In this document: piece after piece, positions 9,937 through 49,128 of the stretch
Layout: each line of letters starts with the position of its first letter
How positions within the stretch are numbered: the first letter of the stretch is position 1
NCBI RefSeq assembly: GCF_900102695.1
Contig: NZ_FMVW01000005.1
Location: 186,001 to 250,000, forward strand
Source: Afifella marina DSM 2698
GTDB lineage: Bacteria; Pseudomonadota; Alphaproteobacteria; Rhizobiales; Afifellaceae
Length of the DNA stretch: 64,000 bases
Direction: 5' to 3'
Program-made: the position numbers and the translations under genes
The notes under the pieces: model-generated
Seen by the model: only the letters and a program-made list of their open reading frames with translations
What the model was told of the DNA's origin: nothing
The model's database searches: none

Positions 9937-11085
9937 CTATTGCGGCACGGCGGGGCCGGGGCCGCGGCTTGGTGGTGAGGCGGGCCCGGTGGCGCCGCGG
10001 ATCATCATCAGCTCGTCGATGTTGTCGACGGTGATATAGCCGATGAAGCGGCCGCCTTCGGTGCGGCCGGCCAGGCTGATGCCGCCCTCCACGACGCCGA
10101 CCGCCGGCGCCATGCCGGCCTGGAGACGTTTCAGCGCATCGCTCAGGCGGGCGCGCGCGGCAATCACCGGAATATCGGTCGTCATGACATGCAGGACGGG
10201 GGCGTCCGGCCCTTCCGCTGCCAGCTTTTCGATCAGCGTCGCGCGCGTGAGGATGCCGCGCAGACGGCCGCTGCCATCGACGACCGGGAATTCGTGCTGT
10301 GTCGTGCGCAGAAGGAGTTCCGCCGCGTCGCCCAAGGTGGCGGAAGGGGCGAGGGATTCGAACTCGCTGATCATGGCATCGCGCACTCTGAGCCCGCGGG
10401 CGGCATCTTCGAGGCCGACGGAGCGCGCTTCCGCATTGCCGGCGAAGAAGATGAAGGCGGCGATGAGGAGGAGGATCGGATTGCCGTAAAGGGCGAGAAA
10501 GCCGAAGCCGACCGCAATGCCCTGGCCGATGCGCGCCGCCATCGTGGTGGCGGCCGGGCGGCTCAGCCTGAAGGAGAGGGCCGCGCGCAGGACGCGCCCG
10601 CCATCCATCGGGAAGGCCGGAATGAGATTGAAGAGGGCGAGGAAGAGATTGACGCCGGCAAGGCGTGCCAAAAAGCTCACCTGCGGATTGTCGAGCGAGG
10701 CGAGCGAGGCCGTATCGACGGCGCCGCCGAGCGCAAGGATCAAGATGGCGGCGATGACGATGTTGACGGCCGGGCCGGCGAGCGCGACGAGGATTTCCTC
10801 GCGCGGATTTTCCGGCATGCGTTCAAGGCGGGCGAGCCCGCCGATCGGCAGAAGCGTGATGTCGGGCGTCTTGATGCCGTAACGGCGCGCCGTCAGCGCG
10901 TGGCCGAATTCATGCGCCACCACGCAGGCGAAGATTGCCAGGATGAAGAGCACGCCGCCGATGGCGGCGGCAGCCCCGCCCATCTGGTAATGCGCAAAGC
11001 CGATCCACGCCAACAGAAGAAAGAAGGTGGCGTGGATGCGGATTTCCGAGCCGAAGAGCCGGCCGATGGGGAAGGACCAGGACAT
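9937..11085 (-). CDS. Site-2 protease family (M50) intramembrane metalloprotease with CBS domains
   Basis: A 382-residue polytopic membrane protease of the M50/S2P family. The zinc site is HEFGH at residues 58-62, with the third ligand in NLIPAFPMDGGRV (Asp161). About six membrane helices occupy the first ~215 residues. Two CBS modules follow at about 225-365 and presumably sense an adenine nucleotide or similar ligand. A proline-rich tail ends the protein. This M50-plus-CBS architecture matches the SpoIVFB-like group; its substrate in this organism is unknown. It is a single gene, convergent with the VWA gene and preceded by argG on the same strand. Confidence 0.92.
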   Translation of the reverse strand: MSWSFPIGRLFGSEIRIHATFFLLLAWIGFAHYQMGGAAAAIGGVLFILAIFACVVAHEFGHALTARRYGIKTPDITLLPIGGLARLERMPENPREEILVALAGPAVNIVIAAILILALGGAVDTASLASLDNPQVSFLARLAGVNLFLALFNLIPAFPMDGGRVLRAALSFRLSRPAATTMAARIGQGIAVGFGFLALYGNPILLLIAAFIFFAGNAEARSVGLEDAARGLRVRDAMISEFESLAPSATLGDAAELLLRTTQHEFPVVDGSGRLRGILTRATLIEKLAAEGPDAPVLHVMTTDIPVIAARARLSDALKRLQAGMAPAVGVVEGGISLAGRTEGGRFIGYITVDNIDELMMIRGATGPASPPSRGPGPAVPQ

Positions 11086-36782: not shown

Positions 36783-38087
36783 ATGAACAACGACAGACCA
36801 CACAACCAGCATGCCCGCGATCCGCGCGGCCGCGATGCCCGCCAGCCGACGCAGATACCGTTTCTGGGCTGGAAAGACATTTTCTGGCGTGTGAGCCAGG
36901 AAATCGGCGAAGACCGCGTCTCGCTGGTGGCGGGCGGCGTCACCTTCTATCTGCTCCTCGCCGCCTTCCCGGCGCTCGGCGCGCTCGTCTCCATCTACGG
37001 GCTCTACAACGACCCCGCCAATCTCGCCTCACAGCTGCAGTCGCTGCAGGCGGTGATGCCGCAGGCGGGCATGGATATCCTGCAGCAGGAGCTGTCGCGG
37101 CTCGTGACGGCAAAATCCTCCTCGCTCAGCTTCGCGTTTCTGACCACGCTCGCTTTGTCGCTGTGGAGTGCCAATAAGGGCGTGAAGTCGCTGTTTCAGG
37201 CGCTCAACGTCGCCTATGAGGAGAAGGAGAAAAGGAATTTCTTCGTCCTCAACATGGTGTCGCTCGCCTTCACGCTCGGCTTTTTGATCCTCATCATCCT
37301 GTTCTTGAGTGCCACGATCGTGGTGCCGGCCGTGCTCGCCTATCTCGGTTTGCATCAGGGTTGGCTGATCGCCTCGATCCGGTGGCCGATCCTGCTGCTC
37401 GTTGCCGCCTTTTCGATCGGCATTCTCTATCGCTACGGGCCGAGCCGACGGCCGTCGCGCTGGCGCTGGGTGACCTGGGGCGGAACGATCACCGCCATGG
37501 TGTGGATCGCAGCCTCGATCCTGTTCTCCTGGTACATTGCGAATTTCGCCGATTACAACGCCACCTACGGATCGCTCGGGGCGGTGATCGGCATCATGAT
37601 GTGGATCTGGGTGTCGGTCTTCGTGCTTCTCGCAGGCGCCGAGCTCAACGCCGAGATGGAGCATCAGACCGCCCGCGACACGACCTTGTCGCCGGAAAAA
37701 CCGATCGGGCTTCGCGGTGCGCATATGGCCGATACGGTCGGCAAGGGGCTCGACGGGTCGGGCGGCGGGGCCGGCATCGACCTCTTCGGCACGCGTCAGC
37801 CGCTCGGGCGCGACCGACCGTTCAGCTTCGGCGAGCTGATCACGCTCGGAATCCCGTTCGTTTTGATCGCCATCCTTCTCACCCCGCCAAAACGGCGGGC
37901 GGCGAAGAGCGGACGGCATTCGTCGAAGCGGGACGCGCGCGAGGCAAGCGGGACGGAGAAGCGGAGCCGGAGCGAGAAAAAGGCCGGCAAGAGCGCCAAA
38001 GATGCCAAAAGCGGGCGGCGGTCGGCTTCAGGGAGCCTTCTCGCCTCGGTTCTGCGTCTGGCTGCGGCGCAGGCCGCCAAGCGCTGA
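36783..38087 (+). CDS. YihY/BrkB family membrane protein
   Basis: A 434-residue polytopic protein of the YihY/virulence factor BrkB family. The conserved core includes VSLVAGGVTFYLLLAAFPALGALV, LWSANKGVKSLFQALNVAYEE and NATYGSLGAVIGIMMWIW, with six helices between about residues 50 and 280. A further hydrophobic segment at about 355-372 precedes a 60-residue Lys/Arg/Ser-rich tail (RSRSEKKAGKSAKDAKSG). Its function is unresolved; the family was once misnamed RNase BN. It is monocistronic. Confidence 0.9.
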   Translation: MNNDRPHNQHARDPRGRDARQPTQIPFLGWKDIFWRVSQEIGEDRVSLVAGGVTFYLLLAAFPALGALVSIYGLYNDPANLASQLQSLQAVMPQAGMDILQQELSRLVTAKSSSLSFAFLTTLALSLWSANKGVKSLFQALNVAYEEKEKRNFFVLNMVSLAFTLGFLILIILFLSATIVVPAVLAYLGLHQGWLIASIRWPILLLVAAFSIGILYRYGPSRRPSRWRWVTWGGTITAMVWIAASILFSWYIANFADYNATYGSLGAVIGIMMWIWVSVFVLLAGAELNAEMEHQTARDTTLSPEKPIGLRGAHMADTVGKGLDGSGGGAGIDLFGTRQPLGRDRPFSFGELITLGIPFVLIAILLTPPKRRAAKSGRHSSKRDAREASGTEKRSRSEKKAGKSAKDAKSGRRSASGSLLASVLRLAAAQAAKR

Positions 38088-38235
38088 GCAGGCGCGAATT
38101 TCTCGAAGAAAGGAAGGGAGCGGCGGCTGAGCCGCTCGGGGTTCCCGCCGGGGGAAGGCGAAAACCCGTTGCAGAGCGTGGCGCCAGGCGATGGCTGATG
38201 CCGGTCGCCGGCGACACGCGTCGTCAGGTCTTGGC

Positions 38236-38580
38236 TTACTTCGCCGCGGAGACGACGACCTCGATCAGCGTGCCCTTGCCGAGTTCGGCGACGCCGATCG
38301 TGGCGCGGGTCGGCAGATGCTCGGCCGGCAGCCAGGCGAGCCAGGCCTCGTTCATGCCGTCCTTCTGGGAAAAGTCGGAGATGTAGATCATCGCCGTCAG
38401 GAGCTTCTCCTTGGAGGAGCCGACCTTGGCCAGAAGATCGTCGATCTTCTTGCAGATCTCTTCCGTCTGACCCTTCATGTCCTTGCTCATATCGTCGGCG
38501 ACGAGGCCGCCGAAATAGAGAACGCCGTTATGCTCCACGACGCGGTGGTTGATCTTCGTCTGGATGTGACGCTGGATCAT
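38236..38580 (-). CDS. RidA/YjgF-family imine deaminase
   Basis: A 114-residue Rid-superfamily protein. The family features LYFGGLVADDMSKDMKGQTEEICKKID and the substrate-binding arginine in HLPTRATIGVAEL are present, with the C-terminal strand LIEVVVSAAK. Rid proteins hydrolyse reactive enamines and imines such as 2-aminoacrylate to keto acids and ammonia. It is the last gene of a long minus-strand operon, 40 bases after a DadA-like FAD oxidoreductase, where it would clear the imine formed by the dehydrogenases. Confidence 0.92.
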   Translation of the reverse strand: MIQRHIQTKINHRVVEHNGVLYFGGLVADDMSKDMKGQTEEICKKIDDLLAKVGSSKEKLLTAMIYISDFSQKDGMNEAWLAWLPAEHLPTRATIGVAELGKGTLIEVVVSAAK

Positions 38581-38620
38581 TGTGTGTCCTTGCTTGATTT
38601 TGGAGGGGGGGAGGCCCGCT

Positions 38621-39748
38621 TCAGGAATTGGCGAAGCGGGTGATGGAGAACGGTGCGATCGGGGCGTTGGTATGGCCGGTCGCGATCAGTTCCGCCATGA
38701 GTTCGCCCACGGCCGGGCCGAGCTGGAAGCCATGGGCGGAAAAGCCGAAAGCGTGGAAGGCGTTTTCGTGCGTCGAGGAGGGACCGATGACGGGAATGTC
38801 GTCGGGCATGCGGCCCTCGATGCCGGCCCAGGAGCGGACGATGGTGGCACTCTTCATGATCGGAAAAATGCCGATCGCCGTCTCCGCCGAATAGCGCAGT
38901 TGCGAGAAGCGCATCTCGGATTTGTTGGTCTTCGGATCGGGATAGCCGCGGCGTCCGCCGCCGATGATGACGGTGCCGTTTTCCGCCTGCTTGAACGACA
39001 GCGGGCGGCCACAGCCGCCGACGACGGCATCGCAGAAGCGCTTCATGCGCGCCGTCACGATCATCATCGGGGCGATCGCCTCGATGGGGGCATGCTCGCC
39101 GAGCTGTCTGGCGATTTCGCCCGCCCAGGCGCCGGCGCAGTTGAGGAGATTGCGTCCCTTAAACGTGCCGGCCGAGGTGTCGACGTGCCAGTCCTTCCCG
39201 TCGCGGCGCACGTTCTCGACATGCGTCTTCTCGAAGAACTGGACGCCGAGCGCGCGCGCCTTGCGCTGAAAGGCGAAGGTCGTGTTGTAGGGGATGGCGA
39301 AGCCGTCATCGAGGCTTGCGAGGCCGCCGACGCAATGCGGGGCGACGGCGGGGAGGAGGCGCCGCAATTCCTGCTGATCGACGATGACTTCGTGGGTGAA
39401 GCCCAGTTCGCGGAGATCGGCGGCACGTTTTGCGAGCGTTTCGAGCTCCGCTTCGGTCTCCGCCACCTTGATCTGCGGGCAGCGCTGAAAGCCGCAATCG
39501 TCGTCGACGAGATCCTCGATCCGGTGCCAGATCTCCATCGAGCGCACCGAGATCGGCACCTCCGCATAATTCCGCCCAAGGCGGCGCACGCCGCCGGCAT
39601 TGACGCCGGAGGCATGGCGGCCGGCATTGTCCTTTTCGATGACGATCACCGACAGGCCGCGTTTGGCGGCGTGCAGCGCGGCCGAGCAGCCGTGGAGGCC
39701 GCCGCCGACGACGATGAGATCCGCCATAGGCGTGCCGGTCACGGTCAT
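38621..39748 (-). CDS. DadA-like FAD-dependent amine/amino-acid oxidoreductase
   Basis: A 375-residue flavoprotein of the D-amino-acid oxidase/glycine oxidase family. The dinucleotide motif VVGGGLHGCSAALHAAKRG is near the N-terminus, and the C-terminal FAD motif is GFSAHGFQLGPAVGELMAEL. Such subunits (beta type, as in OoxB, HcnC or D-hydroxyproline dehydrogenase) oxidise the C-N bond of amino acids, opines or secondary amines. It lies 4 bases after the FAD/BFD subunit gene. It is the second DAO-type gene of the operon and is clearly divergent from the one at 41457. ATG 39727 is an alternative start. Confidence 0.9.
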   Translation of the reverse strand: MTVTGTPMADLIVVGGGLHGCSAALHAAKRGLSVIVIEKDNAGRHASGVNAGGVRRLGRNYAEVPISVRSMEIWHRIEDLVDDDCGFQRCPQIKVAETEAELETLAKRAADLRELGFTHEVIVDQQELRRLLPAVAPHCVGGLASLDDGFAIPYNTTFAFQRKARALGVQFFEKTHVENVRRDGKDWHVDTSAGTFKGRNLLNCAGAWAGEIARQLGEHAPIEAIAPMMIVTARMKRFCDAVVGGCGRPLSFKQAENGTVIIGGGRRGYPDPKTNKSEMRFSQLRYSAETAIGIFPIMKSATIVRSWAGIEGRMPDDIPVIGPSSTHENAFHAFGFSAHGFQLGPAVGELMAELIATGHTNAPIAPFSITRFANS

Positions 39749-39752
39749 ATCC

Positions 39753-41177
39753 TCAGTGTAGGGCTGCGGATTCGTCGGCGAGATCGACCGGAACGGCTTC
39801 CTCGCTTTCGAGCGCTGCGAGCTCCGACAAAAGGAGCGGCTTCAGCGGCGGGCGGATGCGGTAATAGCCGATCTCCGAGATCGGTTCGCCGCGCCGGCTG
39901 GCGATGATCTCGCTGACGGCGAGCCCGCACATGCGGCCCTGACAGGGGCCCATGCCGCTTCTCAGGAAGGATTTCACCTGGTTGGGGCCCGGCGCGCCGA
40001 GATCGACGGCCTTGCGGATGTCGCCAGCCGTCACCTCCTCGCAGCGGCAGACGAGCGTCTCGTCGGCGGGGGCGAGAATTTCCGGCGAGGGCGCATAAAG
40101 GGTTTCCAGAAGCGGCCGGATCTTCGCCTCGCGCATGAGCGCATCGGTGACGGAGCGCCGCTCCTGGGCGTTGCCGCGACCGGCCTTTTCCGCGATCCTG
40201 AGGCCCGCGAGACGCCCGCGCAGCCTGGCTGCAACCGCGCCGCCGATGCCCGCACCGTCGCCTGCCACATAGACGTCGGCCATGGTCGTCTCGAAATACT
40301 CGTCGACCTTCGGCACGAAGCAATGCTGGCTCTTGTTCCATTCGTGCTCGCAGCGCAGGAGGCGCGTGACCTGCTGGTTCGGCACGATGCCCTGGTGGAG
40401 GGCGACGGAGGTGGTTTCGAGACGGTGGGATTTGCCGCCGCTGGTGAAAGTCACGGCCTCCGCCTTGCCATTGCCCTCGATGCGGATGCCGGTCGCATCG
40501 CGGTAGATCGGCACGCCGGCACGGCGCAGCGACAGCATCATCGCCATCCCCTTCAGGAGATAGGATGCGGCGCCGAGGGCGGCCGGAAGATGCTTGAGCG
40601 CGGCCACGTAGCGGCTCTGCGGCACCGTCTCGACGATCGCACGCGGCTTGACGCCGGCCTTCAGCATCTGCGCGGCGATCAGCGACAGGAGCGGACCGGA
40701 GCCGACGAAGACGACATCGTCGGAGACGACGCCGTTCGCTTTCAAGAGGATCTGCAGAGCGCCGGCCGTGGTGACGCCCGGAAGCGTCCAGCCCGGCATC
40801 GGCGTCGGCCGCTCGATGGCGCCCGTTGCCACCACGATGGCGCCGGCCTGAATGTGTTTGGAGCCTTGGCCGAGCGACACGTCGATGCCGAGGGCGCTGT
40901 CGATGTTCCAGACGGTGGCGCCGGGAAGATATTCGGCGCGGCTGTCGCGGAAGGCCCTCGCGATGTCGCGGCCGGCGGCATAATCGGGCCCAAGGATTTT
41001 GGTGCGCTTCTCATCGCTCGTCTCGATGCCGCGATAGATCTGGCCGCCGGGCGCCGGCTGTTCGTCGAGAACGATTGCGGAAAGCCCGGCTTTGGTGACT
41101 TCGACGGCCGCGGCCATGCCGGCGGGACCGGCGCCGATGATGGCGACGTCGTAGCGGTTTTTCGTCGTCGCGCTCAT
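39753..41177 (-). CDS. FAD/NAD(P)-dependent oxidoreductase with BFD-like [2Fe-2S] domain (OoxA/HcnB type)
   Basis: A 474-residue protein with a pyridine nucleotide-disulfide oxidoreductase fold (GAGPAGMAAAVEV at about residues 14-26 and a second site VFVGSGPLLS). A C-terminal BFD-like domain has cysteines Cys377, Cys379, Cys412 and Cys417 (VCRCEEV and GPCQGRMC). This is the alpha-subunit layout of opine oxidase OoxA, hydrogen cyanide synthase HcnB and hydroxyproline dehydrogenases, and of the N-terminal half of sarcosine oxidase alpha. It should pass electrons between the DAO subunit and the acceptor. Its start overlaps the stop of the [2Fe-2S] gene. Confidence 0.9.
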   Translation of the reverse strand: MSATTKNRYDVAIIGAGPAGMAAAVEVTKAGLSAIVLDEQPAPGGQIYRGIETSDEKRTKILGPDYAAGRDIARAFRDSRAEYLPGATVWNIDSALGIDVSLGQGSKHIQAGAIVVATGAIERPTPMPGWTLPGVTTAGALQILLKANGVVSDDVVFVGSGPLLSLIAAQMLKAGVKPRAIVETVPQSRYVAALKHLPAALGAASYLLKGMAMMLSLRRAGVPIYRDATGIRIEGNGKAEAVTFTSGGKSHRLETTSVALHQGIVPNQQVTRLLRCEHEWNKSQHCFVPKVDEYFETTMADVYVAGDGAGIGGAVAARLRGRLAGLRIAEKAGRGNAQERRSVTDALMREAKIRPLLETLYAPSPEILAPADETLVCRCEEVTAGDIRKAVDLGAPGPNQVKSFLRSGMGPCQGRMCGLAVSEIIASRRGEPISEIGYYRIRPPLKPLLLSELAALESEEAVPVDLADESAALH

Positions 41178-41473
41178 CAGGAAATCACCTCCGCGCTGCC
41201 CGACTGGCGGCGCACCTGCATGCCCTCTTCGACCTGAACCATGCAGGCCTGGCGGTTCGGCACGCCGTCGATCTCGACGAGGCAGTCGAAGCACACGCCC
41301 ATCAGGCAGAAGGGGCCGCGGGGCGTCTCGGTGACCGGCGTGGTGCGGAAAATGCGTTCGTCGGCCGCGAGAAGGGCCGCTGCGATCGTGTCGCCGCTGC
41401 GGGCCTTCAGGGGCTTGCCTTCGAAGGTGAAGGAGAGAGCGGGAGCGCCCGTCTCCTCAGCGCGCTTGAACAT
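41177..41473 (-). CDS. Small [2Fe-2S] ferredoxin-like subunit (HcnA/gamma type)
   Basis: A 98-residue protein with a plant-type [2Fe-2S] binding pattern: Cys56, Cys61 and Cys64 in CLMGVCFDC, and Cys77. This is the short gamma subunit that accompanies OoxA/HcnB-type flavoproteins, equivalent to the N-terminal ferredoxin-like domain of sarcosine oxidase alpha. It overlaps the upstream DAO gene by 17 bases and the downstream FAD/BFD gene by one base, so the three are translated together. Confidence 0.92.
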   Translation of the reverse strand: MFKRAEETGAPALSFTFEGKPLKARSGDTIAAALLAADERIFRTTPVTETPRGPFCLMGVCFDCLVEIDGVPNRQACMVQVEEGMQVRRQSGSAEVIS

Positions 41474-42566
41474 TGAATCTCCTTGCAGAAAAGGCGGCCA
41501 TATCGTCGTCGAGCCGTCCGCGGGCGATCATCGGGGCGAGCGCCATGGCATGGGCGCCGGCGAGCGTGACGCCGGAATGGCAATTGACGCTGAAGGCGCC
41601 GGGATGGGTTTCGGATTGCTGATAGATCGGATGGCCGTCGGGGCTCATCACCCGCAACGCCGCCCATGAGCGCACGACGCGCAGATCTTTCAGAAACGGG
41701 AAGGCGCGCAGCGCGCGGGCCGCGATATCCGCCATGACACGCGGCTTGGAGGTGGTGTCGAAGCCCTCATCCTCATGGCTGTCGCCGATCATGATGGAGC
41801 CTTCGTCGGTCTGGCGCACGACATGCGTCGGCATGGTGAAGAGCGGCGCGGTGCGCTCCGTCACCAGGATCTGGCCCTTGAGCGGCTCGACCGGAATGTC
41901 GAGCCCGACCATTTCGCCCAGATCGCGATTGCCGAGGCCGGCGGCGAGCACGAGCTTGGCGCCGGTGAAGGTGCCGGCTGGCGTGCGCACGGCAAAGTGG
42001 CCACCGTCTCGCTCGATCTCGATGCCGCGGGCGTTCGGATGATAGCGGCCGCCGTTTTTCAGAAGGCCCGCATGCAGAGCGCGCATCAGATAGAGCGGGC
42101 TCGCGTGGCCGTCATGCGGCGAATAGGTGCCGCCGACGACATCGGGGCCGAGGCCCGGCAGCATGTCGTCGAGTTCGGCGCGGCTCAAAACCCGGGCGCC
42201 GTAATATTCCGCGCCATGCTCCTGGTTCATGCGGTTGAGGATCTTGACCTGTTCCTCAAGCTCCTCCTCGTCGACGCAGACATGCACGCCGCCCGGCTTG
42301 TGATAGGCGGTGGAGACGCCCGTCTCCTCCAGGAGGGTGTCGGAAAATTCCGGCCACACATCCGCCGAACGGCGCGTCCAGCGCGCATATTCGGGCATTT
42401 TGAGGCCCTTCGTCTGTACCCAGACGAGGCCGAAATTGCCGCGCGAGGCCCGAAAGGCGACGTCGCCCTCGTCGAGGAGATCGACCTTTTCGCCCTCGCG
42501 GGCGAGGCCATAGGCGATGGCGGCGCCGACGAGGCCGCCGCCGATGACGATGGTGTCGGCCTTCAT
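41457..42566 (-). CDS. DadA-like FAD-dependent oxidoreductase (beta subunit)
   Basis: A 369-residue DAO-family flavoprotein with VIGGGLVGAAIAYGLAREG at the N-terminus, the conserved ASRGNFGLVWVQTKG substrate region and the C-terminal FSVNCHSGVTLAGAHAMALAPMI FAD motif. It is most likely the catalytic beta subunit partnering the FAD/BFD and [2Fe-2S] proteins encoded immediately downstream. Its start overlaps the stop of the permease gene by four bases (ATGA), tying the enzyme to the transporter. Confidence 0.9.
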   Translation of the reverse strand: MKADTIVIGGGLVGAAIAYGLAREGEKVDLLDEGDVAFRASRGNFGLVWVQTKGLKMPEYARWTRRSADVWPEFSDTLLEETGVSTAYHKPGGVHVCVDEEELEEQVKILNRMNQEHGAEYYGARVLSRAELDDMLPGLGPDVVGGTYSPHDGHASPLYLMRALHAGLLKNGGRYHPNARGIEIERDGGHFAVRTPAGTFTGAKLVLAAGLGNRDLGEMVGLDIPVEPLKGQILVTERTAPLFTMPTHVVRQTDEGSIMIGDSHEDEGFDTTSKPRVMADIAARALRAFPFLKDLRVVRSWAALRVMSPDGHPIYQQSETHPGAFSVNCHSGVTLAGAHAMALAPMIARGRLDDDMAAFSARRFNVQAR

Positions 42567-43363
42567 CGTGCACCCTCGCCGATGAGGAGGCGATCGAGGC
42601 CGTAGATGCGATCGACGAGGAACATGAGACCCACGGTGAAGAGAATGGCGACCGTGGAAATGGAGGCGACGAGGGGATCCGTCGTCTGGGTGATGTGGGA
42701 GAAGAGACGCACTGGCAATGTCGTTGTGGTGGGGCTGACGATGAACACCGTCACGGTGAGTTCGTCGAAGCTGGTGATGAAAGCAAGGACCCAGCCGCCG
42801 ATCACGCCGGGCATGATGGCCGGCAGGGTGACGCGGCGAAAGACGGTCCAATCGGAGGCGCCGAGCGACACCGCCGCCTGTTCCTGGGAGCGGTCGAGAC
42901 CGGTCACCGAGGCGAGAACGAGGCGCAGGATGAAGGGCATGATGATGATCGCATGGCAGAGCATCAGCCCGACGAAGGTGCCGTTGGCATTGAGGAAGCT
43001 GAGAAAGCGCAGGAAGGCGATGCCGAGAACCACGGTCGGCACCGTCAAGGGCGACAGGAAGAACGCCTGAAGGGCGTCGCGACCGGGAAAGCGGCCGCGG
43101 CCGATGGCGAGTGCTGCCGGCACGGCGAAGATCGAGGACACGGTCGCGGAGGCGACGCCGAGCTGGAGGCTGACCCAGGCCGCTTCGATGAAGTCGGGAT
43201 TGTCGAGGATCGCCCGGAACCAGCGCAGCGACAGGCCACTCGGCGGAAATTCCAGAAAGCCTTCCGGCGTGAAGGAGACGCCGATGACGACGACGAGCGG
43301 CGCCAGCATGAAGACGGCGAAAAGAACGCTGAAGGCTTTGGCGAAGAGGCCGTTGTGTCTCAT
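42563..43363 (-). CDS. ABC transporter permease, PotC-like
   Basis: A 266-residue inner-membrane permease with six helices and the cytoplasmic EAA loop EQAAVSLGASDWTVFRRVTLP at about residues 160-180. It is the second permease of a spermidine/putrescine/opine-type importer. A 4-base overlap with the upstream permease gene and with the downstream FAD oxidoreductase gene indicates a single operon. Confidence 0.93.
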   Translation of the reverse strand: MRHNGLFAKAFSVLFAVFMLAPLVVVIGVSFTPEGFLEFPPSGLSLRWFRAILDNPDFIEAAWVSLQLGVASATVSSIFAVPAALAIGRGRFPGRDALQAFFLSPLTVPTVVLGIAFLRFLSFLNANGTFVGLMLCHAIIIMPFILRLVLASVTGLDRSQEQAAVSLGASDWTVFRRVTLPAIMPGVIGGWVLAFITSFDELTVTVFIVSPTTTTLPVRLFSHITQTTDPLVASISTVAILFTVGLMFLVDRIYGLDRLLIGEGAR

Positions 43364-44220
43364 TCGAAGACCCCCGCGAAACGGCGTTCGACGAGCCGGT
43401 TCCAGCCGACCATGATGGCGAGCACCGAGACGAGCAGAAGCATCGCGATCGCTGCGCCGAGCGGCCAGTTCAAGGTGTTCAGAAACTCGTCATAGACGGT
43501 GGTGGAGACGACCTTGACGCGCCGCCCGCCGAGGATGGCCGGCGTGGCGAAGGCGCTCGCCGAGAGCGAAAAGACGATGAGGGAGCCCGACAGGATGCCC
43601 GGCATCGCCTGCGGCAGGACGATCCTGCGGAAGATGGTCCAGGGCCTTGCGCCGAGCGATTCCGCGGCACTTTCGGTCGCCGGATCGGTGCGCTGAAGGG
43701 CTGCCCAGATGGCGAGGATCATGAACGGCACCATGACATGGACGAGGGCGAGCACGATGCCACCCGAGGTGTACATCATGCGGATCGGCGAGGTGATGAG
43801 GCCAAGGTCGCGCAAGGCGTCGTTGATGACGCCCTTGTTGCCGAGGAGGATCGCCCAGCCGAGCGTGCGCACCACCACGGAGATGAGGAGCGGGCCAAGT
43901 ACGACGAGGAGCATCACCGAGCGCCAGAACGGGTGCATGCGCGACAGGAAATAGGCCTGTGGCAGGCCGATCGCGGCGCAGATGAGCGTGGTGGCGAGCG
44001 CGATCGCGAAGGTGCGCCCGAAAATCTCGTAGAAATAACCGTCGCTCAGGACCTCGATATAATTCTCCAGCGAGAAGGTCGGGGTGATGCCGCCATAGAA
44101 GGAGAAGCTGTGGAAGCTGAGGATGAAGGTCATCGCCAGCGGCACGAGGAGGAGCACGAGAAAGAGGAGGAGCGCCGGGGCGCTCAGGATCCAGGGCCGG
44201 GAACGCGATCGACGTGTCAT
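43360..44220 (-). CDS. ABC transporter permease, PotB-like
   Basis: A 286-residue permease with a basic N-terminus, six helices and the EAA loop ESAAESLGARPWTIFRRIVLPQ. It pairs with the PotC-like protein to form the membrane channel. Overlaps of four bases on both sides (ATPase gene upstream, PotC-like gene downstream) show tight coupling. Confidence 0.93.
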   Translation of the reverse strand: MTRRSRSRPWILSAPALLLFLVLLLVPLAMTFILSFHSFSFYGGITPTFSLENYIEVLSDGYFYEIFGRTFAIALATTLICAAIGLPQAYFLSRMHPFWRSVMLLVVLGPLLISVVVRTLGWAILLGNKGVINDALRDLGLITSPIRMMYTSGGIVLALVHVMVPFMILAIWAALQRTDPATESAAESLGARPWTIFRRIVLPQAMPGILSGSLIVFSLSASAFATPAILGGRRVKVVSTTVYDEFLNTLNWPLGAAIAMLLLVSVLAIMVGWNRLVERRFAGVFE

Positions 44221-45281
44221 GCCGCTTCATCCTCCTTCGGCAGGAGGCGCAGATGATGGGGCGTCCAGGCGAGATGCACGGTCTCGCCGTGCTCGGGCTC
44301 GCGCTGGCCGCGGTTGCGGCGCACGACGAGGAGAGGTCCGATCGGCGTTTCGATGCGGAAGAGCCATTGGTCGCCGAGGAAGATGCGCTCGATCACCGGG
44401 CCAGAGACGACGGCCTCGCCCGCCTCGACGATCTCGATGCGTTCCGGCCGCAAGGAGACGGTAATCGGGCCGGGCCGCAGATGGGCGGGCGGACCGGCAA
44501 GCTCCATGCCGTTGCAGACGAGAGCGGAGCCTTCGTCATTCGTCGTCTTCAGCGTGGCTGTGAGGCTGTTGGTCTTGCCGAGGAAGGTCGAGATGAAGGA
44601 GGATTTCGGGTTTTCGTAGACGTGGAAGGGCGTTTCTTGCTGCATCAGCCGACCGTGATGCATGACCGCGACGCGGTCTGAGAGCGCCATCGCCTCGTTC
44701 TGATCGTGGGTGACGAGAAGCGTCGTCACGCCCGCCTCCTGCTGGATGCGCCGCAATTCGAGCTGCATTTCCTCGCGCAGCTTGGCGTCGAGATTGGAGA
44801 GAGGCTCGTCGAGGAGGAGAAGCTCCGGTTCGATCACGAGGGCCCGGGCGAGTGCCACGCGCTGGCGCTGGCCGCCGGACATCGCCCGGGGATAGCGCTT
44901 GGCGAGATGGGCAAGCTGTACGAGCTCCAGCGCTCCGGCGACCTTGCGCGCACGTTCCTTCTTGTCGATGCCGCGCATCTCCAGGCCGAAGGCGACGTTT
45001 TCTTCCACCGTCATATGCGGGAAGAGCGCATAGGTCTGGAAGACGATGCCCAGCCCGCGGTTGCGCGCCGGCACCTCTTCCAGGTGGCGACCATTGAGCA
45101 TGATGTGTCCGGAGGTCGGCTGCTCGAAGCCGGCGATCATCTGCAGCGTCGTGGTCTTGCCGCAGCCGGAGGGACCGAGGAGGGAGACGAACTCGCCTTT
45201 CTCGACGGCGAGCGAAAAATCTTCGACGGCCACGACGTCGCCGAAGCGCTTGGTCAGGCCGCTAAGCTGAAGGAAAGGCAT
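44217..45281 (-). CDS. ABC transporter ATP-binding protein, PotA-like
   Basis: A 354-residue ATPase. Walker A is GPSGCGKTT at residues 36-44, the signature is MSGGQRQRVALARAL and Walker B is LLLLDEPLSNLD. A C-terminal TOBE domain follows at about 270-340. It energises the importer encoded in the same operon. A strong hairpin (45317-45339) lies between it and the upstream binding-protein gene and would set their relative expression. Confidence 0.95.
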   Translation of the reverse strand: MPFLQLSGLTKRFGDVVAVEDFSLAVEKGEFVSLLGPSGCGKTTTLQMIAGFEQPTSGHIMLNGRHLEEVPARNRGLGIVFQTYALFPHMTVEENVAFGLEMRGIDKKERARKVAGALELVQLAHLAKRYPRAMSGGQRQRVALARALVIEPELLLLDEPLSNLDAKLREEMQLELRRIQQEAGVTTLLVTHDQNEAMALSDRVAVMHHGRLMQQETPFHVYENPKSSFISTFLGKTNSLTATLKTTNDEGSALVCNGMELAGPPAHLRPGPITVSLRPERIEIVEAGEAVVSGPVIERIFLGDQWLFRIETPIGPLLVVRRNRGQREPEHGETVHLAWTPHHLRLLPKEDEAA

Positions 45282-45316
45282 CTGTGAACTCGCAAAGCCG
45301 GCAGGTGGGGGCGGAG

Positions 45317-45339
45317 GCGGGAGTGCAGCGCACTCCCGC
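45317..45339 (-). terminator. Intercistronic attenuator-like hairpin in the importer operon
   Basis: GCGGGAGTGC and GCACTCCCGC form a perfect 10-bp stem with a 3-base loop, 13 bases after the binding-protein stop and 35 bases before the ATPase start. No T-run follows on the minus strand. The position is typical of stems that protect the abundant binding-protein mRNA or partly stop transcription. Confidence 0.65.
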
Positions 45340-45352
45340 AGTGCCGTTCAAC

Positions 45353-46384
45353 TCAGCGTTCGACCTCGCGCGCCCAGCGCTTGGTCCATTCTTCGCGGTT
45401 CGGGTTGATCGTATCCCAGTCGACGGCGACGAGGTTTTCGATCTGCTCAGGTCCATAGGGCAGGAAGGAGGCCTGCTCTTCGGTCAGTTCCGCTTTGCGG
45501 TTGACCGGGCCGGAGCCCATGACGTCGGCGAGCTTCACCTGAATTTCCGGCGTCAGAAGGTATTGGATGAACTCGTTGGCGGCCTCGGAAACGTTGCTGT
45601 CGACGACAGGGCAGGCGGCGAGCATGAGGGCGACGGCGCCTTCCTTCGGATAGGCGAATTTTGCCGGGAAGCCCGTATCGGCGAGCGACTTGGTGCGGCC
45701 CGAACCCCAGATCGACAGGGCGATTTCCTGCGACTGGAAGAGCTCCGACATCTTGCCCGAGGACGGCTCGAAGACGAGCACGTTCGGCGCGACCTCATCG
45801 GCCATCACCTCAAAGCCCGGATCGATGTCCTTCTCACCGCCGCCGTTGAGGCGCGCCATCATGATGAGGGTGTGCAGACCATAGGTGTTGCTGATCGGCG
45901 GGATCGACAGGATGCCTTCATATTTCGGATCCTTCAGGTCTTCCCAGCTTGCGGGGGGATCCCAGCCTTCGCGCTCGAACCATTCGGTGTTGTAGGTGAA
46001 ACCGGTCGCGACGAAGCCGACGCCGATGGAATTGGGGCCGAGCTTGGCGAGATCGTAGACGTCGTCGAAGACCGCCCCCTTGCTCATCGGGGCGCAGAAG
46101 CCGAGGGCGTCGGCCTGATACATCGGGCCGTCGTCGAGGATGACGACGTCGAGTTCCTGATTGCCCTTCTGCGCCTGAAGGCGCGCAAGGTTTTCGGTGG
46201 AATTGCCGGCGACGAACTGGATCGTCACGTCATGCGTCTTCTCAAATTCGGGGAAGACGACTTCCTTCATCAAGGTTTCGAAAGAGCCGCCATAACCGCC
46301 GACGACGAGGGTATCCTGCGCCTGTGCAGTCTGAACGGCTAGGAGGGAGCTTGCGGCTGCAAGCGCCATGATGACCGGTTTCAT
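45353..46384 (-). CDS. ABC transporter periplasmic substrate-binding protein, PotD-like
   Basis: A 343-residue exported binding protein. The signal peptide spans residues 1-22 (ending VQTAQA). The PotD/ferric-type fold is seen in VVGGYGGSFETLMKEVVFPEFEK and in LDVVILDDGPMYQADALGF. It is the first gene of the nine-gene operon. ATG 46384 has GAGGGG at good spacing; earlier in-frame starts would bury the signal peptide. The ligand is unknown: the dehydrogenases downstream suggest an amino acid, amine or opine rather than a polyamine alone. Confidence 0.92.
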   Translation of the reverse strand: MKPVIMALAAASSLLAVQTAQAQDTLVVGGYGGSFETLMKEVVFPEFEKTHDVTIQFVAGNSTENLARLQAQKGNQELDVVILDDGPMYQADALGFCAPMSKGAVFDDVYDLAKLGPNSIGVGFVATGFTYNTEWFEREGWDPPASWEDLKDPKYEGILSIPPISNTYGLHTLIMMARLNGGGEKDIDPGFEVMADEVAPNVLVFEPSSGKMSELFQSQEIALSIWGSGRTKSLADTGFPAKFAYPKEGAVALMLAACPVVDSNVSEAANEFIQYLLTPEIQVKLADVMGSGPVNRKAELTEEQASFLPYGPEQIENLVAVDWDTINPNREEWTKRWAREVER

Positions 46385-46462
46385 TGAGAACCCCTCTGTA
46401 TTCTTTTGAGACATGATCATTGAATGGGCGTTTTCCGGGTGTTTCAAATGAGATTATATGTA

Positions 46463-46489
46463 CACCTCATTCCCAAAGGTTATGAGGTG
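46463..46489. promoter_or_regulatory. LysR-type operator (T-N11-A dyad)
   Basis: CACCTCAT (46463-46470) and ATGAGGTG (46482-46489) are perfect inverted half-sites with 11 bases between the inner T and A, exactly the LysR T-N11-A consensus. The dyad lies in the divergent region between the LysR gene and the transporter/dehydrogenase operon and covers the ribosome-binding site of the LysR gene. It is a likely site for autoregulation and activation of the operon. Confidence 0.75.
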
Positions 46490-46493
46490 CGCC

Positions 46494-47459
46494 TTGGCGA
46501 AGCCCAATATACGGCAGGTCGAAGCCTTCAACGCCGTCATGAAGGCCGGGTCCGTCACCAAAGCGGCGGAAGGATTGTTCGTTAGCCAGCCGGCGGTGAG
46601 CAAGTTGCTGCACGCCTTCGAAGTGGCCTGCGACCTGCCGCTCTTCACCCGCACCAAGCGCCGCGTCGTGCCGACGCCGGAGGCGCGGCAATTGTTCGTC
46701 GAAACCTCCAAGCTGGAGCAAGGCCTGACGCGCGTGCACGAGGCGGCGCGCGCCATCCGCGAATTGCAGCGCGGCGAGATCTCCATCGTCGCCTTTCCCG
46801 CGATCAGCATGCGGCTCATCCCGCGCAAGGTGGGCGCCCTTTTATGTGATCGGCCCGATGTGCTTTTGTCCCTCTTCACGCGCACCTCTCGCAGCGTGGA
46901 GAATTCGATGATCACGCGGGCGGCGGATTTCGGCATCTCGCTCGTGCCGACGAGCAACCCGGCGCTGCATTGCGAGCCGTTTACGAGCATCTCCATGATC
47001 TGCGCCCTGCGCCGCGAGCATCCTCTGGCGCGCAAGGCGGCGATCTCGCTTGAAATGATCGCCGAGGAGCGTCTCGTGGCGCTCGGGCGGGACGATCTTT
47101 CCTATCCGCTCATCGATGAGGCGTTTCAGCGTGCGGGGCTGGCGATGCGGCCGGCAGCCGAAGTGCAGATGGCCGATGCGGCCTGCAGCATGGTGGCATC
47201 CGGCTGCGGGGTGGCGATCGTGCCCTCGCTCGTGTCGTTCGAGGCGGGCTTTCCGGATGTCGTGTTCCGCCCGCTCACCGAGCCGATCGCCATGACGACC
47301 TGGCTTTTGACGTCCACCTATCAGGAGCTGTCGCAGCTGGCGCTCGAGCTGATGGACGAGATCCGGGGCGCGGTGGAGGAGCTGGAGGCGGAGCTGCACG
47401 GCACGCTGGGCTGCGACCCGGCCGCCGATTCGCGGTTTGCGGGCGCGACGCATCCTTGA
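46494..47459 (+). CDS. LysR-family regulator of the adjacent importer/dehydrogenase operon
   Basis: A 321-residue LTTR. It begins MAKPNIRQVEAFNAVMKAGSVTKAAEGLFVSQPAVSKLLHAFE in pattern, with the helix-turn-helix at about residues 18-37, and resembles OccR/NocR opine-responsive regulators in that region. The effector domain follows. Start TTG 46494 is chosen because GAGG lies six bases upstream and because the earlier ATGs (46458, 46482) fall within a T-N11-A operator. It is divergent from the operon it presumably controls, sensing the imported substrate. Confidence 0.88.
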   Translation: MAKPNIRQVEAFNAVMKAGSVTKAAEGLFVSQPAVSKLLHAFEVACDLPLFTRTKRRVVPTPEARQLFVETSKLEQGLTRVHEAARAIRELQRGEISIVAFPAISMRLIPRKVGALLCDRPDVLLSLFTRTSRSVENSMITRAADFGISLVPTSNPALHCEPFTSISMICALRREHPLARKAAISLEMIAEERLVALGRDDLSYPLIDEAFQRAGLAMRPAAEVQMADAACSMVASGCGVAIVPSLVSFEAGFPDVVFRPLTEPIAMTTWLLTSTYQELSQLALELMDEIRGAVEELEAELHGTLGCDPAADSRFAGATHP

Positions 47460-47607
47460 CTTGTGGCGCGCTGCCGCTTAGGTGAGCGACACTCTATAAA
47501 AGAGCCAGATTTACGACCCGCCGACCGGAACGGGATTCCGGAGGTCACCATCCGCCAGCGAAGGTTCGCCCGCGGATGCAATTTGCATTGAACGCTCGAG
47601 ACGCGCC

Positions 47608-49128
47608 ATGTTCGATACCCTATCAGATCGCCTGTCAGGCATCTTCGACAAGATCACCGGCCGCGGAGCACTTTCCGAGAAGGACGTCTCGGAAGCGCTG
47701 CGAGAAGTGCGGCGAGCCCTTCTGGAAGCGGACGTCGCACTCGAAGTGGTGCGCGCCTTCACCGAGAAGGTGCGCGAGCGCGCCGTCGGCGCCGAAGTCG
47801 TGCGCTCCGTCAAGCCGGGGCAGATGGTCGTCAAGATCGTGCACGACCAGCTCGTCGAGATGCTGGGCGAGGAAGCCTCGGAGATCAATCTCCACGCCGC
47901 ACCGCCCGTCGCCATCATGATGGTCGGTCTGCAGGGCTCGGGTAAGACGACCTCGACGGCGAAGATCGCCAAGCGCCTGTCGGAGCGGGAGAAGAAAAAG
48001 GTCTTGATGGCCTCGCTCGACACCCGCCGGCCGGCCGCGCAGGAGCAGCTCAAGGTGCTCGGCGAACAGATCGGCGTCGCGACCTTGCCGATCATCGAAG
48101 GGCAGGGGCCGGTCGACATCGCCAAGCGGGCGCAGAATGCGGCACGGCTCGGCGGCTACGACGTGGTCATGCTCGATACGGCGGGCCGCACGCATATCGA
48201 CGAGCCCTTGATGATCGAGATGGAGGAGGTGAAGCGGGCTTCAAATCCGCATGAAATCCTCCTCGTCGCCGATGCTCTGACCGGCCAGGACGCCGTCAAT
48301 GTGGCGCGTTCCTTCAACGAGCGCTGCGCGGTGACGGGCATCGTCCTGACCCGTATCGACGGCGACGGGCGCGGCGGCGCGGCACTTTCCATGCGCGCCG
48401 TCACCGGCAAGCCGATCAAGCTCATCGGCACCGGCGAAAAGATCGACGCGATCGAGGCCTTCCATCCGTCGCGCATCGCCGACCGCATTCTCGGCATGGG
48501 CGACATCGTCTCGCTCGTCGAACGGGCCTCGGAGCAGATCGACCAGGAGAAGGCCCTCAAGACCGCCCAGAAGATGAAGAAGGGCGAGTTCGACCTCGAG
48601 GATTTCGCCGAACAGCTTCGTCAGATGGAAAAGATCGGCGGCATGTCGGGCATCATGAGCATGATGCCGGGCATCGGCAAAATGAAGAAGCAGGTGGCTG
48701 CAGCCGGAATCGACGACAGCGTCGTGAAACGCCAGCTCGCCATCATCTCGTCGATGACGCGCCAGGAGCGGCAGAAGCCAGCGGTGATGAATGCGAGCCG
48801 CAAGAAGCGCGTGGCGGCGGGCTCCGGCGTCGAGGTGCAGGACGTCAACAAGCTCCTCAAGATGCACCGGCAGATGTCGGACATGATGAAGAAGCTCGGC
48901 CGCAACAAGAAGATGGCGGGTCTCTTCGGGGGCGCACAGCCCGATCCGGCCATGCTGGAAGAAATGCAGAAGGGCGGTTTGCCGGGCGGCATGCCCGGCG
49001 GGCTCTCAGGCGGTCTCGGCGGTATGCCGGGCGGCCTGCCCAAAGGATTGCCGGGCCTTCCTGGAATGGGAGGCGGGATGGGCGGTCTGCCGGGGCTTCC
49101 CGGTCTTGGCCGCGGCAAGAAGAAATAA
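47608..49128 (+). CDS. ffh: Signal recognition particle protein Ffh
   Basis: A 506-residue SRP GTPase that binds 4.5S RNA and hydrophobic signal sequences. The N domain is followed by the G domain with VGLQGSGKTTSTAKIAKRL, DTAGRTHIDEPLMIEM and TRIDGDGRGG. The Met-rich M domain shows GGMSGIMSMMPGIGKMKKQ and the RNA-binding helix region around SSMTRQER. The tail is an extended Gly/Leu/Met/Pro repeat ending GRGKKK. It heads the ffh-rpsP-rimM-trmD-rplS cluster. Confidence 0.97.
   Translation: MFDTLSDRLSGIFDKITGRGALSEKDVSEALREVRRALLEADVALEVVRAFTEKVRERAVGAEVVRSVKPGQMVVKIVHDQLVEMLGEEASEINLHAAPPVAIMMVGLQGSGKTTSTAKIAKRLSEREKKKVLMASLDTRRPAAQEQLKVLGEQIGVATLPIIEGQGPVDIAKRAQNAARLGGYDVVMLDTAGRTHIDEPLMIEMEEVKRASNPHEILLVADALTGQDAVNVARSFNERCAVTGIVLTRIDGDGRGGAALSMRAVTGKPIKLIGTGEKIDAIEAFHPSRIADRILGMGDIVSLVERASEQIDQEKALKTAQKMKKGEFDLEDFAEQLRQMEKIGGMSGIMSMMPGIGKMKKQVAAAGIDDSVVKRQLAIISSMTRQERQKPAVMNASRKKRVAAGSGVEVQDVNKLLKMHRQMSDMMKKLGRNKKMAGLFGGAQPDPAMLEEMQKGGLPGGMPGGLSGGLGGMPGGLPKGLPGLPGMGGGMGGLPGLPGLGRGKKK

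Follow-up and report, generated by a model that had tools for sequence, protein, structure and literature searches.

A chromosomal operon of Afifella marina with an importer, RidA and two alternative catalytic subunits of a putative opine dehydrogenase

An operon of nine genes was investigated in a 64,000-nucleotide stretch of DNA from Afifella marina DSM 2698 (contig NZ_FMVW01000005.1, positions 186,001 to 250,000; the whole stretch is called the window). It encodes an ATP-binding cassette (ABC) importer, a heteromeric flavin dehydrogenase with two DAO-type catalytic subunits (beta1 and beta2) and a RidA-family protein. We propose, with a probability of roughly 0.6, that the operon imports an opine-like compound, which would be cleaved by a shared electron-transfer core (alpha and gamma) together with either of the two beta subunits, divided by the stereochemistry of the opine arm. 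A first-pass annotation had described nine largely overlapping minus-strand genes as an undescribed amine or opine catabolic system. The gene set was confirmed by the open reading frames, by Pfam matches and by the recurrence of its order in ten other loci. The assignment to amine/opine catabolism with a heteromeric flavin dehydrogenase is supported by the protein families, the motifs and the grouping with OoxB, NoxB and LecH. Undescribed, however, is wrong for the enzyme, since the four-gene set is published: OdhB1-C-A-B2 of Bradyrhizobium japonicum (PMC4575208) and sacEFGH of pTiEU6 (PMC6733357) precede it. By the standard that the annotation itself had set, this claim is largely refuted. 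In the parts of both papers considered here the four enzyme genes are known, but the importer with RidA is not covered. Thus, the enzyme class is already known; what is new is a chromosomal member of it in an Afifella-like bacterium, linked to an importer and RidA and with a regulator attached. The genes are listed with their positions in the window; all Pfam matches quoted are above the family cut-off.

46458..47459, plus strand: divergent LysR-type regulator, probably of this operon (Pfam HTH_1 and LysR_substrate)
45353..46384, minus strand: periplasmic solute-binding protein, SBP (SBP_bac_8, 91.7 bits)
44217..45281, minus strand: ABC transporter ATPase with TOBE_2 (ABC_tran 132.2 bits, TOBE_2 59.4 bits)
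43360..44220, minus strand: PotB-like ABC permease (BPD_transp_1 49.3 bits; best NCBIfam model PotB, 175 bits, below its cut-off of 348)
42563..43363, minus strand: PotC-like ABC permease (BPD_transp_1 57.6 bits; best NCBIfam model PotC, 153.5 bits, below its cut-off of 326)
41457..42566, minus strand: beta1, DAO-type catalytic subunit on the OoxB/NoxB side, proposed for the D-arm (DAO 214.3 bits; R305, RxW)
41177..41473, minus strand: gamma, [2Fe-2S] subunit (Fer2_4 110.3 bits; C-x4-C-x2-C-x12-C)
39753..41177, minus strand: alpha, electron-transfer subunit with flavin adenine dinucleotide (FAD) and BFD parts (Pyr_redox_2 82.5 bits, Fer2_BFD 43 bits; CxC-x32-C-x4-C)
38621..39748, minus strand: beta2, DAO-type catalytic subunit on the LecH/SacH side, proposed for the L-arm (DAO 241.8 bits; E311, R55, R59)
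38236..38580, minus strand: RidA-family imine/enamine deaminase (Ribonuc_L-PSP, 65.5 bits)

The phylogeny of both DAO subunits, which the first-pass annotation had suggested as a check, was calculated with 46 beta1 and 42 beta2 proteins and without rows of D-hydroxyproline, hydrogen cyanide synthase or sarcosine oxidase enzymes. The tree is divided into two halves with a support of 100/100; OoxB and NoxB belong to the beta1 half, LecH to the beta2 half. In both halves the nearest rows of the window proteins are alike, namely Afifella kin, followed by Palleronia, Paracoccus and Thioclava. Beta1 and beta2 of the window share 104 of 357 aligned residues. Differences were located in a single alignment of 44 beta1 and 41 beta2 rows with seven labelled proteins of tumour-inducing (Ti) plasmids, which replaced three earlier Ti rows. 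Different invariant residues were found in 23 columns. Among them is the column of beta1 R305 and beta2 E311, occupied by Arg in 44/44 beta1 and by Glu in 41/41 beta2 proteins. All seven labelled Ti proteins follow this division (OoxB, NoxB and both SacE with Arg; both LecH and SacH with Glu). In alignments with glycine oxidases, R305 falls on an Arg of both 7cyx and 4ysh, and in 4ysh it is this same Arg on which E311 falls. In glycine oxidase, an enzyme accepting D-amino acids, this Arg binds the carboxylate. Furthermore, beta2 contains R55 (40/41) and R59 (41/41) at positions that are occupied by Trp and Lys in beta1. The carboxylate is predicted to be bound by R305 in beta1 and by R55/R59 in beta2. 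Monomeric sarcosine oxidase relies on an Arg in its N-terminal segment together with a C-terminal Lys; at what we presume to be the place of this Lys, beta2 has Gln. The NCBIfam scores lean weakly in the same direction, ThiO (161 bits) being the best model for beta1 and SoxB (127 bits), slightly before ThiO (124 bits), for beta2, all below cut-off.

One alpha and one gamma gene lie between both beta genes in all 35 two-beta clusters known to us from the survey described below, the window included. The distances of beta1, beta2 and alpha correlate with 0.80-0.83 over 29 clusters, and none of 10000 permutations was as high. For this test 31 of the 35 clusters were usable (L086 with a cut beta1, L096 with a split beta2 and the later added L115 and L117 were left out; L numbers are our locus labels), and two near-copies of the window (L100, L101) were dropped. 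A similar result was obtained for SBP, beta1 and beta2 (0.84-0.86, the SBP at 0.84-0.85, again 0/10000 permutations) with 18 of the 21 importer-bearing clusters, L096, L100 and L101 being left out. Since shared host descent adds to these correlations, they demonstrate joint inheritance and not contact: beta1, beta2 and alpha are inherited together. A single enzyme holding both betas was rejected, as tagged OdhB2 of B. japonicum did not pull down OdhB1 according to the part of PMC4575208 considered. Of the three options of the first-pass annotation (sequential oxidation, alternative subunits, racemic substrate), the evidence favours two alternative catalytic subunits, and we read them as subunits of opposite stereochemistry.

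Sequential oxidation, with beta1 and beta2 acting in turn on one substrate molecule, appears very improbable to us. Both genes share one operon, and an L-arm cut of a D,L-opine would release a D-amino acid for a D-specific beta subunit. However, cutting an opine once is sufficient to give a 2-oxo acid and an amino acid, and clusters with beta1 only or beta2 only sit on Ti plasmids whose hosts use matching opines.

The distribution of the beta subunits on Ti plasmids was examined in fetched stretches and by searches of whole records. In the considered parts of the sources, a D-configured arm is described for octopine and nopaline (PMC4575208), D,L-succinamopine is assigned to pTiEU6 and L,L-leucinopine with L,L-succinamopine to pTiBo542 and pTiChry5 (PMC6733357). 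Nopaline and rideopine are assigned to pTi932 and, most likely, D,L-leucinopine to pTi6.2, whose host consumed its leucinopine within 48 h, while Bo542 and Chry5 left that opine (PMC10410297). In pTiA6, pTi-SAKURA and pTi932 beta1 was detected, without beta2 beside gamma and alpha. Both subunits are encoded by pTiEU6, and pTiBo542 and pTiChry5 carry beta2 and no beta1. For pTi6.2 we found beta1 and a beta2 remnant (L119:8203-8680) between the alpha and permease genes, at the place that SacH takes in pTiEU6. The remnant matches SacH residues 1-65 (47%) and 299-373 (56%), and the middle of the gene is missing. pTiS4, with two beta1 matches and no clear beta2, was left out of the tally because a source for the stereochemistry of its opine was lacking. 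Altogether, beta1 occurs in 5/5 plasmids tied to a D-configured opine (pTiA6, pTi-SAKURA, pTi932, pTiEU6, pTi6.2) and beta2 without beta1 in 2/2 L,L plasmids, which are close kin and therefore count as one case. By its occ genes, pTiA6 is taken to be of the octopine type. A division into D-arm and L-arm subunits fits this pattern as well as the residues. It would also account for the octopine dehydrogenase activity seen with both of two unrelated subunits.

Alternatively, the betas may be convergent or redundant, catalyzing the same reaction with the same opine, the second one having been acquired by subunit exchange; subunit exchange and convergent evolution are proposed in the considered part of PMC4575208. 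We regard this as rather unlikely. The RxW motif is kept in 46/46 beta1 and 42/42 beta2 proteins (window included), in agreement with redundancy, and so is the substrate range of the B. japonicum enzymes given below. But it would be unexpected that both subunits are kept through a divergence to ~40% identity, with the 23 columns of differing invariant residues, and the Ti plasmids sort the betas by opine stereochemistry.

Several observations speak against the stereochemical division and the opine assignment. Octopine, but not nopaline, was used by both B. japonicum enzymes, as determined by dye reduction; the beta2 enzyme had a Km of 19.5 mM, the beta1 enzyme (OdhAB1C) showed very low activity, and the core preferred beta2 (part of PMC4575208 considered). 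Should their products reveal that both enzymes cut the same octopine arm, the stereochemical division would be refuted, and beta1 could be of little importance. The number of Ti cases is small, and they are akin to each other: beta2 is 93% identical between the two L,L clusters, the nopaline type is shared by pTi-SAKURA and pTi932, and the clusters of pTiEU6 and pTi6.2 are related. Two betas for one D,L-opine, as in pTiEU6, are allowed but not predicted by the arm rule. That Bo542 and Chry5 left the leucinopine of the pTi6.2 type could also be explained by uptake or regulation. Moreover, pTiA6 contains a lone DAO gene (437 amino acids; L122, 2308-3621) with 245 bits to the beta2 profile and 111 bits to that of beta1. 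The 5 kb around it contain an ABC ATPase gene and neither gamma nor a complete alpha, and on visual inspection Ala takes the place of the beta2 Glu. Similar two-piece matches with 33-37% identity to SacH occur in pTiBo542, pTiS4 and pTi932. Neither this gene nor these matches were counted as beta2; true beta2 proteins were 50-67% identical to SacH in the same searches. A nicotinamide adenine dinucleotide (NAD)-type opine dehydrogenase gene lies beside several Ti clusters and is absent from the genome of the window. Finally, the NCBIfam models SoxB (127 bits) and ThiO (124 bits), both below cut-off, are hardly separated for beta2.

According to our proposal, a secondary-amine dicarboxylate of the opine kind (N-carboxyalkyl amino acid) would be imported and oxidatively cleaved in the cytoplasm. 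The shared electron-transfer core would consist of one alpha (FAD, BFD cluster) and one gamma ([2Fe-2S]), and either beta1 or beta2 would dock on it, giving two alternative enzymes and not one enzyme with both. The FAD of the beta subunit would oxidize the C-N bond next to a carboxylate; electrons would travel by way of flavin mononucleotide (FMN) at the alpha/beta interface and the clusters to a respiratory acceptor. The imine formed may be hydrolyzed, perhaps with the help of RidA, to a 2-oxo acid and an amino acid. Beta1 is predicted to act on the D-configured arm, as in octopine and nopaline, and beta2 on the L-configured arm, as in L,L-leucinopine; the host could then use both diastereomers, or either end. 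Substrate, arm specificity, electron acceptor and the role of RidA are deduced here. That the betas are stereochemical opposites on one core, and two-beta operons enantio-complementary scavengers of opine-type iminodiacids, has in our view even chances. As substrates in this host, opines of marine invertebrates are a guess.

The binding protein, of which the operon has one, is relevant for the question whether the betas serve two amines differing in structure and not in stereochemistry. Two complexes for different opines, succinamopine and leucinopine, are expected for pTiEU6 in the considered part of PMC6733357, and the distinct invariant residues of beta1 and beta2 would suit this as well. 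But a single SBP co-inherited with both betas suggests closely related ligands, and pTiBo542 and pTiChry5 use L,L-leucinopine and L,L-succinamopine with beta2 alone (PMC6733357, same part). We consider two such substrates quite unlikely. The best match of the SBP in the PDB is 4edp (E 2.7e-24, ligand unstated), and further matches include the agropine permease entry 6hly (E 2.5e-10) and the mannopine-labelled binding protein 5l9s (E 8.4e-9). For the LysR protein, OccR (5vvh, E 8.5e-11) is among the PDB matches, ranking after several other LysR proteins. The closest entry for RidA is the RidA-family protein 9bk1 (E 5.3e-18), and a function in imine clean-up, as the first-pass annotation suggested, is plausible. 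Literature linking RidA to opines was not found among the matches listed, judged by title and start of the abstract.

It was also considered that no opines are involved and the operon serves the catabolism of D/L imino or amino acids (proline, hydroxyproline, N-methyl amino acids), with a beta1 like D-amino-acid or D-hydroxyproline dehydrogenase and a beta2 like L-proline dehydrogenase or sarcosine oxidase. The best PDB match of beta2 is PH1364 (1y56_B, E 5.3e-36), an archaeal L-proline dehydrogenase according to PMC4575208, in the part considered. The best NCBIfam model of beta1 is ThiO (161 bits, below cut-off). Furthermore, the operon lacks two components of Ti clusters, the NAD opine dehydrogenase gene and the arginine genes. 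On the other hand, opine enzymes are the closest ones that carry a label, hydroxyproline epimerases and deaminases have no match among the ten genes, and L-proline gave no activity with the beta2 enzyme of B. japonicum (PMC4575208, in part). We judge this explanation unlikely.

Other known enzymes were compared and rejected. The D-hydroxyproline dehydrogenase pathway is accompanied by genes of hydroxyproline epimerase and deaminase; neither was found in a search confined to the nine operon genes and LysR. HcnABC, the hydrogen cyanide synthase, is arranged as [2Fe-2S]-FAD/BFD-DAO with a single DAO gene, and the operon differs by its order DAO-[2Fe-2S]-FAD/BFD-DAO and the importer. Heterotetrameric sarcosine oxidase (SoxBDAG) has a large fused alpha subunit including a folate-binding part. 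Alpha of the window, with 474 amino acids, covers just positions 277-602 of the 996-position soxA model, far below cut-off, and gamma matches positions 16-99 of this model, also far below cut-off. A homarine pathway was dropped; among the matches listed, no literature on such an operon was found, judged by title and start of the abstract.

Motifs of the flavin-containing opine dehydrogenases were compared in the protein sets; RxW, the FMN motif of the beta subunits, was described above. The N-terminal GxGxxG was found in 44/46 beta1, 42/42 beta2 and, with G or A in the last place, 52/54 alpha proteins, including those of the window. C-x4-C-x2-C-x11-12-C is present in 54/54 gamma proteins, the window included. 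For alpha, C-x-C-x15-20-C-x4-C is printed in the considered part of PMC4575208. The window alpha, C-x-C-x32-C-x4-C, lies outside this range, and since all 54 alpha proteins, OoxA and NoxA of Ti plasmids included, fit a spacer of 25-40, the printed spacing may be in error.

The nine genes (38236-46384) are read in the order SBP-ATPase-permease-permease-beta1-gamma-alpha-beta2-RidA and mostly overlap. The junctions from ATPase to RidA are -4, -4, -4, -17, -1, +4 and +40 bases, and SBP and ATPase are separated by +71 bases. The tandem of overlapping beta, gamma and alpha genes, a trait of opine dehydrogenases, is seen with beta1/gamma (-17) and gamma/alpha (-1). The LysR gene at 46458-47459, which belongs to the picture beyond the nine genes described before, starts 73 bases past the start codon of SBP. 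Sigma-70-like promoters numbered 0 in 38000-47700 compared with 1.0 expected by shuffles, a result that is little informative here.

In the first search, 12 of 61 genomes had a beta1 match at 1e-60; among 385 genomes sampled from the class, 25 had a beta2 match at 1e-75. The own genome is counted in both cases. Among plasmid records 306 matched beta1 (1e-50) and 160 beta2 (1e-40). By profile 57 loci were classed, 34 of them as beta1-gamma-alpha-beta2, with the window as the 35th; the others were beta1-gamma-alpha, gamma-alpha-beta2 or incomplete (L086 and L090, at contig or stretch ends). Around beta2 matches, 18 of 21 fetched loci (L080-L097, L111-L113) were of the two-beta form, only some of the class-wide matches being fetched. 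Because the loci were picked by similarity to the window, these fractions are no rates for bacteria at large. The two-beta form occurs in many alpha- and some betaproteobacteria of the survey. The same importer family accompanies 21/35 two-beta clusters (on the opposite strand in L030 and L082), and RidA lies just downstream in 13/35, all within those 21. The full order, with LysR divergent upstream of SBP and RidA at the end, recurs in 10/34 other two-beta loci (L024, L028, L029, L031, L032, L038, L043, L096, L100, L101). Three of the ten stem from congeners, and the hosts include Paracoccus, Thioclava, Burkholderia, Paraburkholderia, Microvirga and Azospirillum. Chance co-location of the genes was rejected on the basis of this recurrence. 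The nine-gene operon of L096 (genome G044) is complete except for its beta2 (9957-10808 and onward), whose two matching parts lie in separate frames, owing to either decay or a sequencing error. Some two-beta operons adjoin genes of malate synthase G (L029:1422-3551), an alpha-hydroxy acid oxidase (L030:1144-2298) or the DapA family (L043:438-1337), a possible hint to glyoxylate or a related 2-oxo acid as product.

In the source genome (3.96 Mb, 24 contigs) 45 matches to the DAO family, often short ones, were obtained at E 0.001. A DAO gene by itself is thus nothing unusual there, and it is the linked set that counts. A second beta1-gamma-alpha set was observed in this genome (L109, contig C13:521985-523070 and downstream), with a beta1 47% identical and no beta2 nearby; a set resembling it occurs in the congeneric genome G003 (L110). 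For beta1, Afifella sp. IM 167 is the nearest among the named genomes (79% identical). In the window LysR and the nine genes are set between the housekeeping genes yihY and ffh (38087-46458). Among five congeneric genomes searched, this was found in three (the own genome, G001 and G003), and yihY and ffh are directly adjacent, with no operon-gene match in between, in G002 and G004. G004 has the operon on another contig, and G002 gave no beta1 match at 1e-60. As the site is filled or empty across congeners, LysR and the nine genes were gained, lost or moved together as a block. An NAD-type opine dehydrogenase (PF02317) was detected in one of the five genomes, G002.

If the stereochemical division is true, a puzzle in the literature is solved, namely that two unrelated subunits have a single apparent activity, and each enzyme of the B. 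japonicum pair would attack a different bond of octopine. The presence of Arg or Glu in one column would then be a residue marker which predicts opine stereochemistry from sequence, the opine stereochemistry used by a bacterium would be readable from the beta it carries, and the modular dehydrogenase core would accept either mirror form. Among the matches listed from the open-access literature no earlier statement of a D/L division between the betas was found; the pTiChry5 paper and most subscription journals were outside this scope.

The closest described system is OdhB1-C-A-B2 of B. japonicum (bll7193-bll7190), a biochemically studied four-gene enzyme with two DAO subunits, in which each beta copurified with the common alpha and gamma (PMC4575208, here and below in part). 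It shares with the window the order beta1-gamma-alpha-beta2, RxW in both betas, a type-1 beta that goes with OoxB/NoxB and a second, divergent beta of type 2, placed near archaeal L-proline dehydrogenase in that paper; this fits beta2 of the window, whose best solved relative is PH1364. The likeness is based on the published description and gene order of the four enzyme genes. Flavin-containing opine dehydrogenases of this class are characterized by an alpha4beta4gamma4 assembly. The L-proline dehydrogenase PH1363/PH1364 of Pyrococcus horikoshii (1y56) is the best solved relative of the window alpha (PH1363, 1y56_A, E 6.1e-14) and beta2 but is archaeal, has one beta and uses L-proline.

The four-gene set sacEFGH of pTiEU6 is noted in PMC6733357, which cites the B. 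japonicum work (in the part considered). Like the window it has beta1-gamma-alpha-beta2 behind a divergent LysR gene, with Arg in SacE and Glu in SacH at the switch column. In contrast to the window, its ABC importer is of another family, an NAD opine dehydrogenase gene lies next to the set, and RidA is missing from the 11-kb stretch. The gene order gamma-alpha-beta2 is also found in lecFGH of pTiBo542 and pTiChry5, and beta2 of pTiBo542 is 45% identical to that of the window. Unlike the window, lecFGH has another importer and no beta1, in whose place an NAD-type opine dehydrogenase gene lies directly before gamma (pTiBo542, L037:4178-5296; pTiChry5, L116:2211-3314). The pTiS4 cluster L120 has SBP-ATPase-permease-permease-beta1-gamma-alpha in the same order and of the same family (SBP 48%, ATPase 53%, permeases 61% and 51% identical), but beta2 and RidA are both lacking from its 9-kb stretch. 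Finally, the occ operon of pTiA6 resembles the window in the divergent LysR gene (OccR), an importer, beta1 (~46% identical), [2Fe-2S] subunit, alpha and a RidA-family gene directly after ooxA (L035:7353-7697). It differs in the importer family (OccQMPT), a cluster without beta2 and an ornithine cyclodeaminase downstream. Thus, with RidA after ooxA in pTiA6 and an importer of the same family in pTiS4, neither of the two is foreign to opine clusters.

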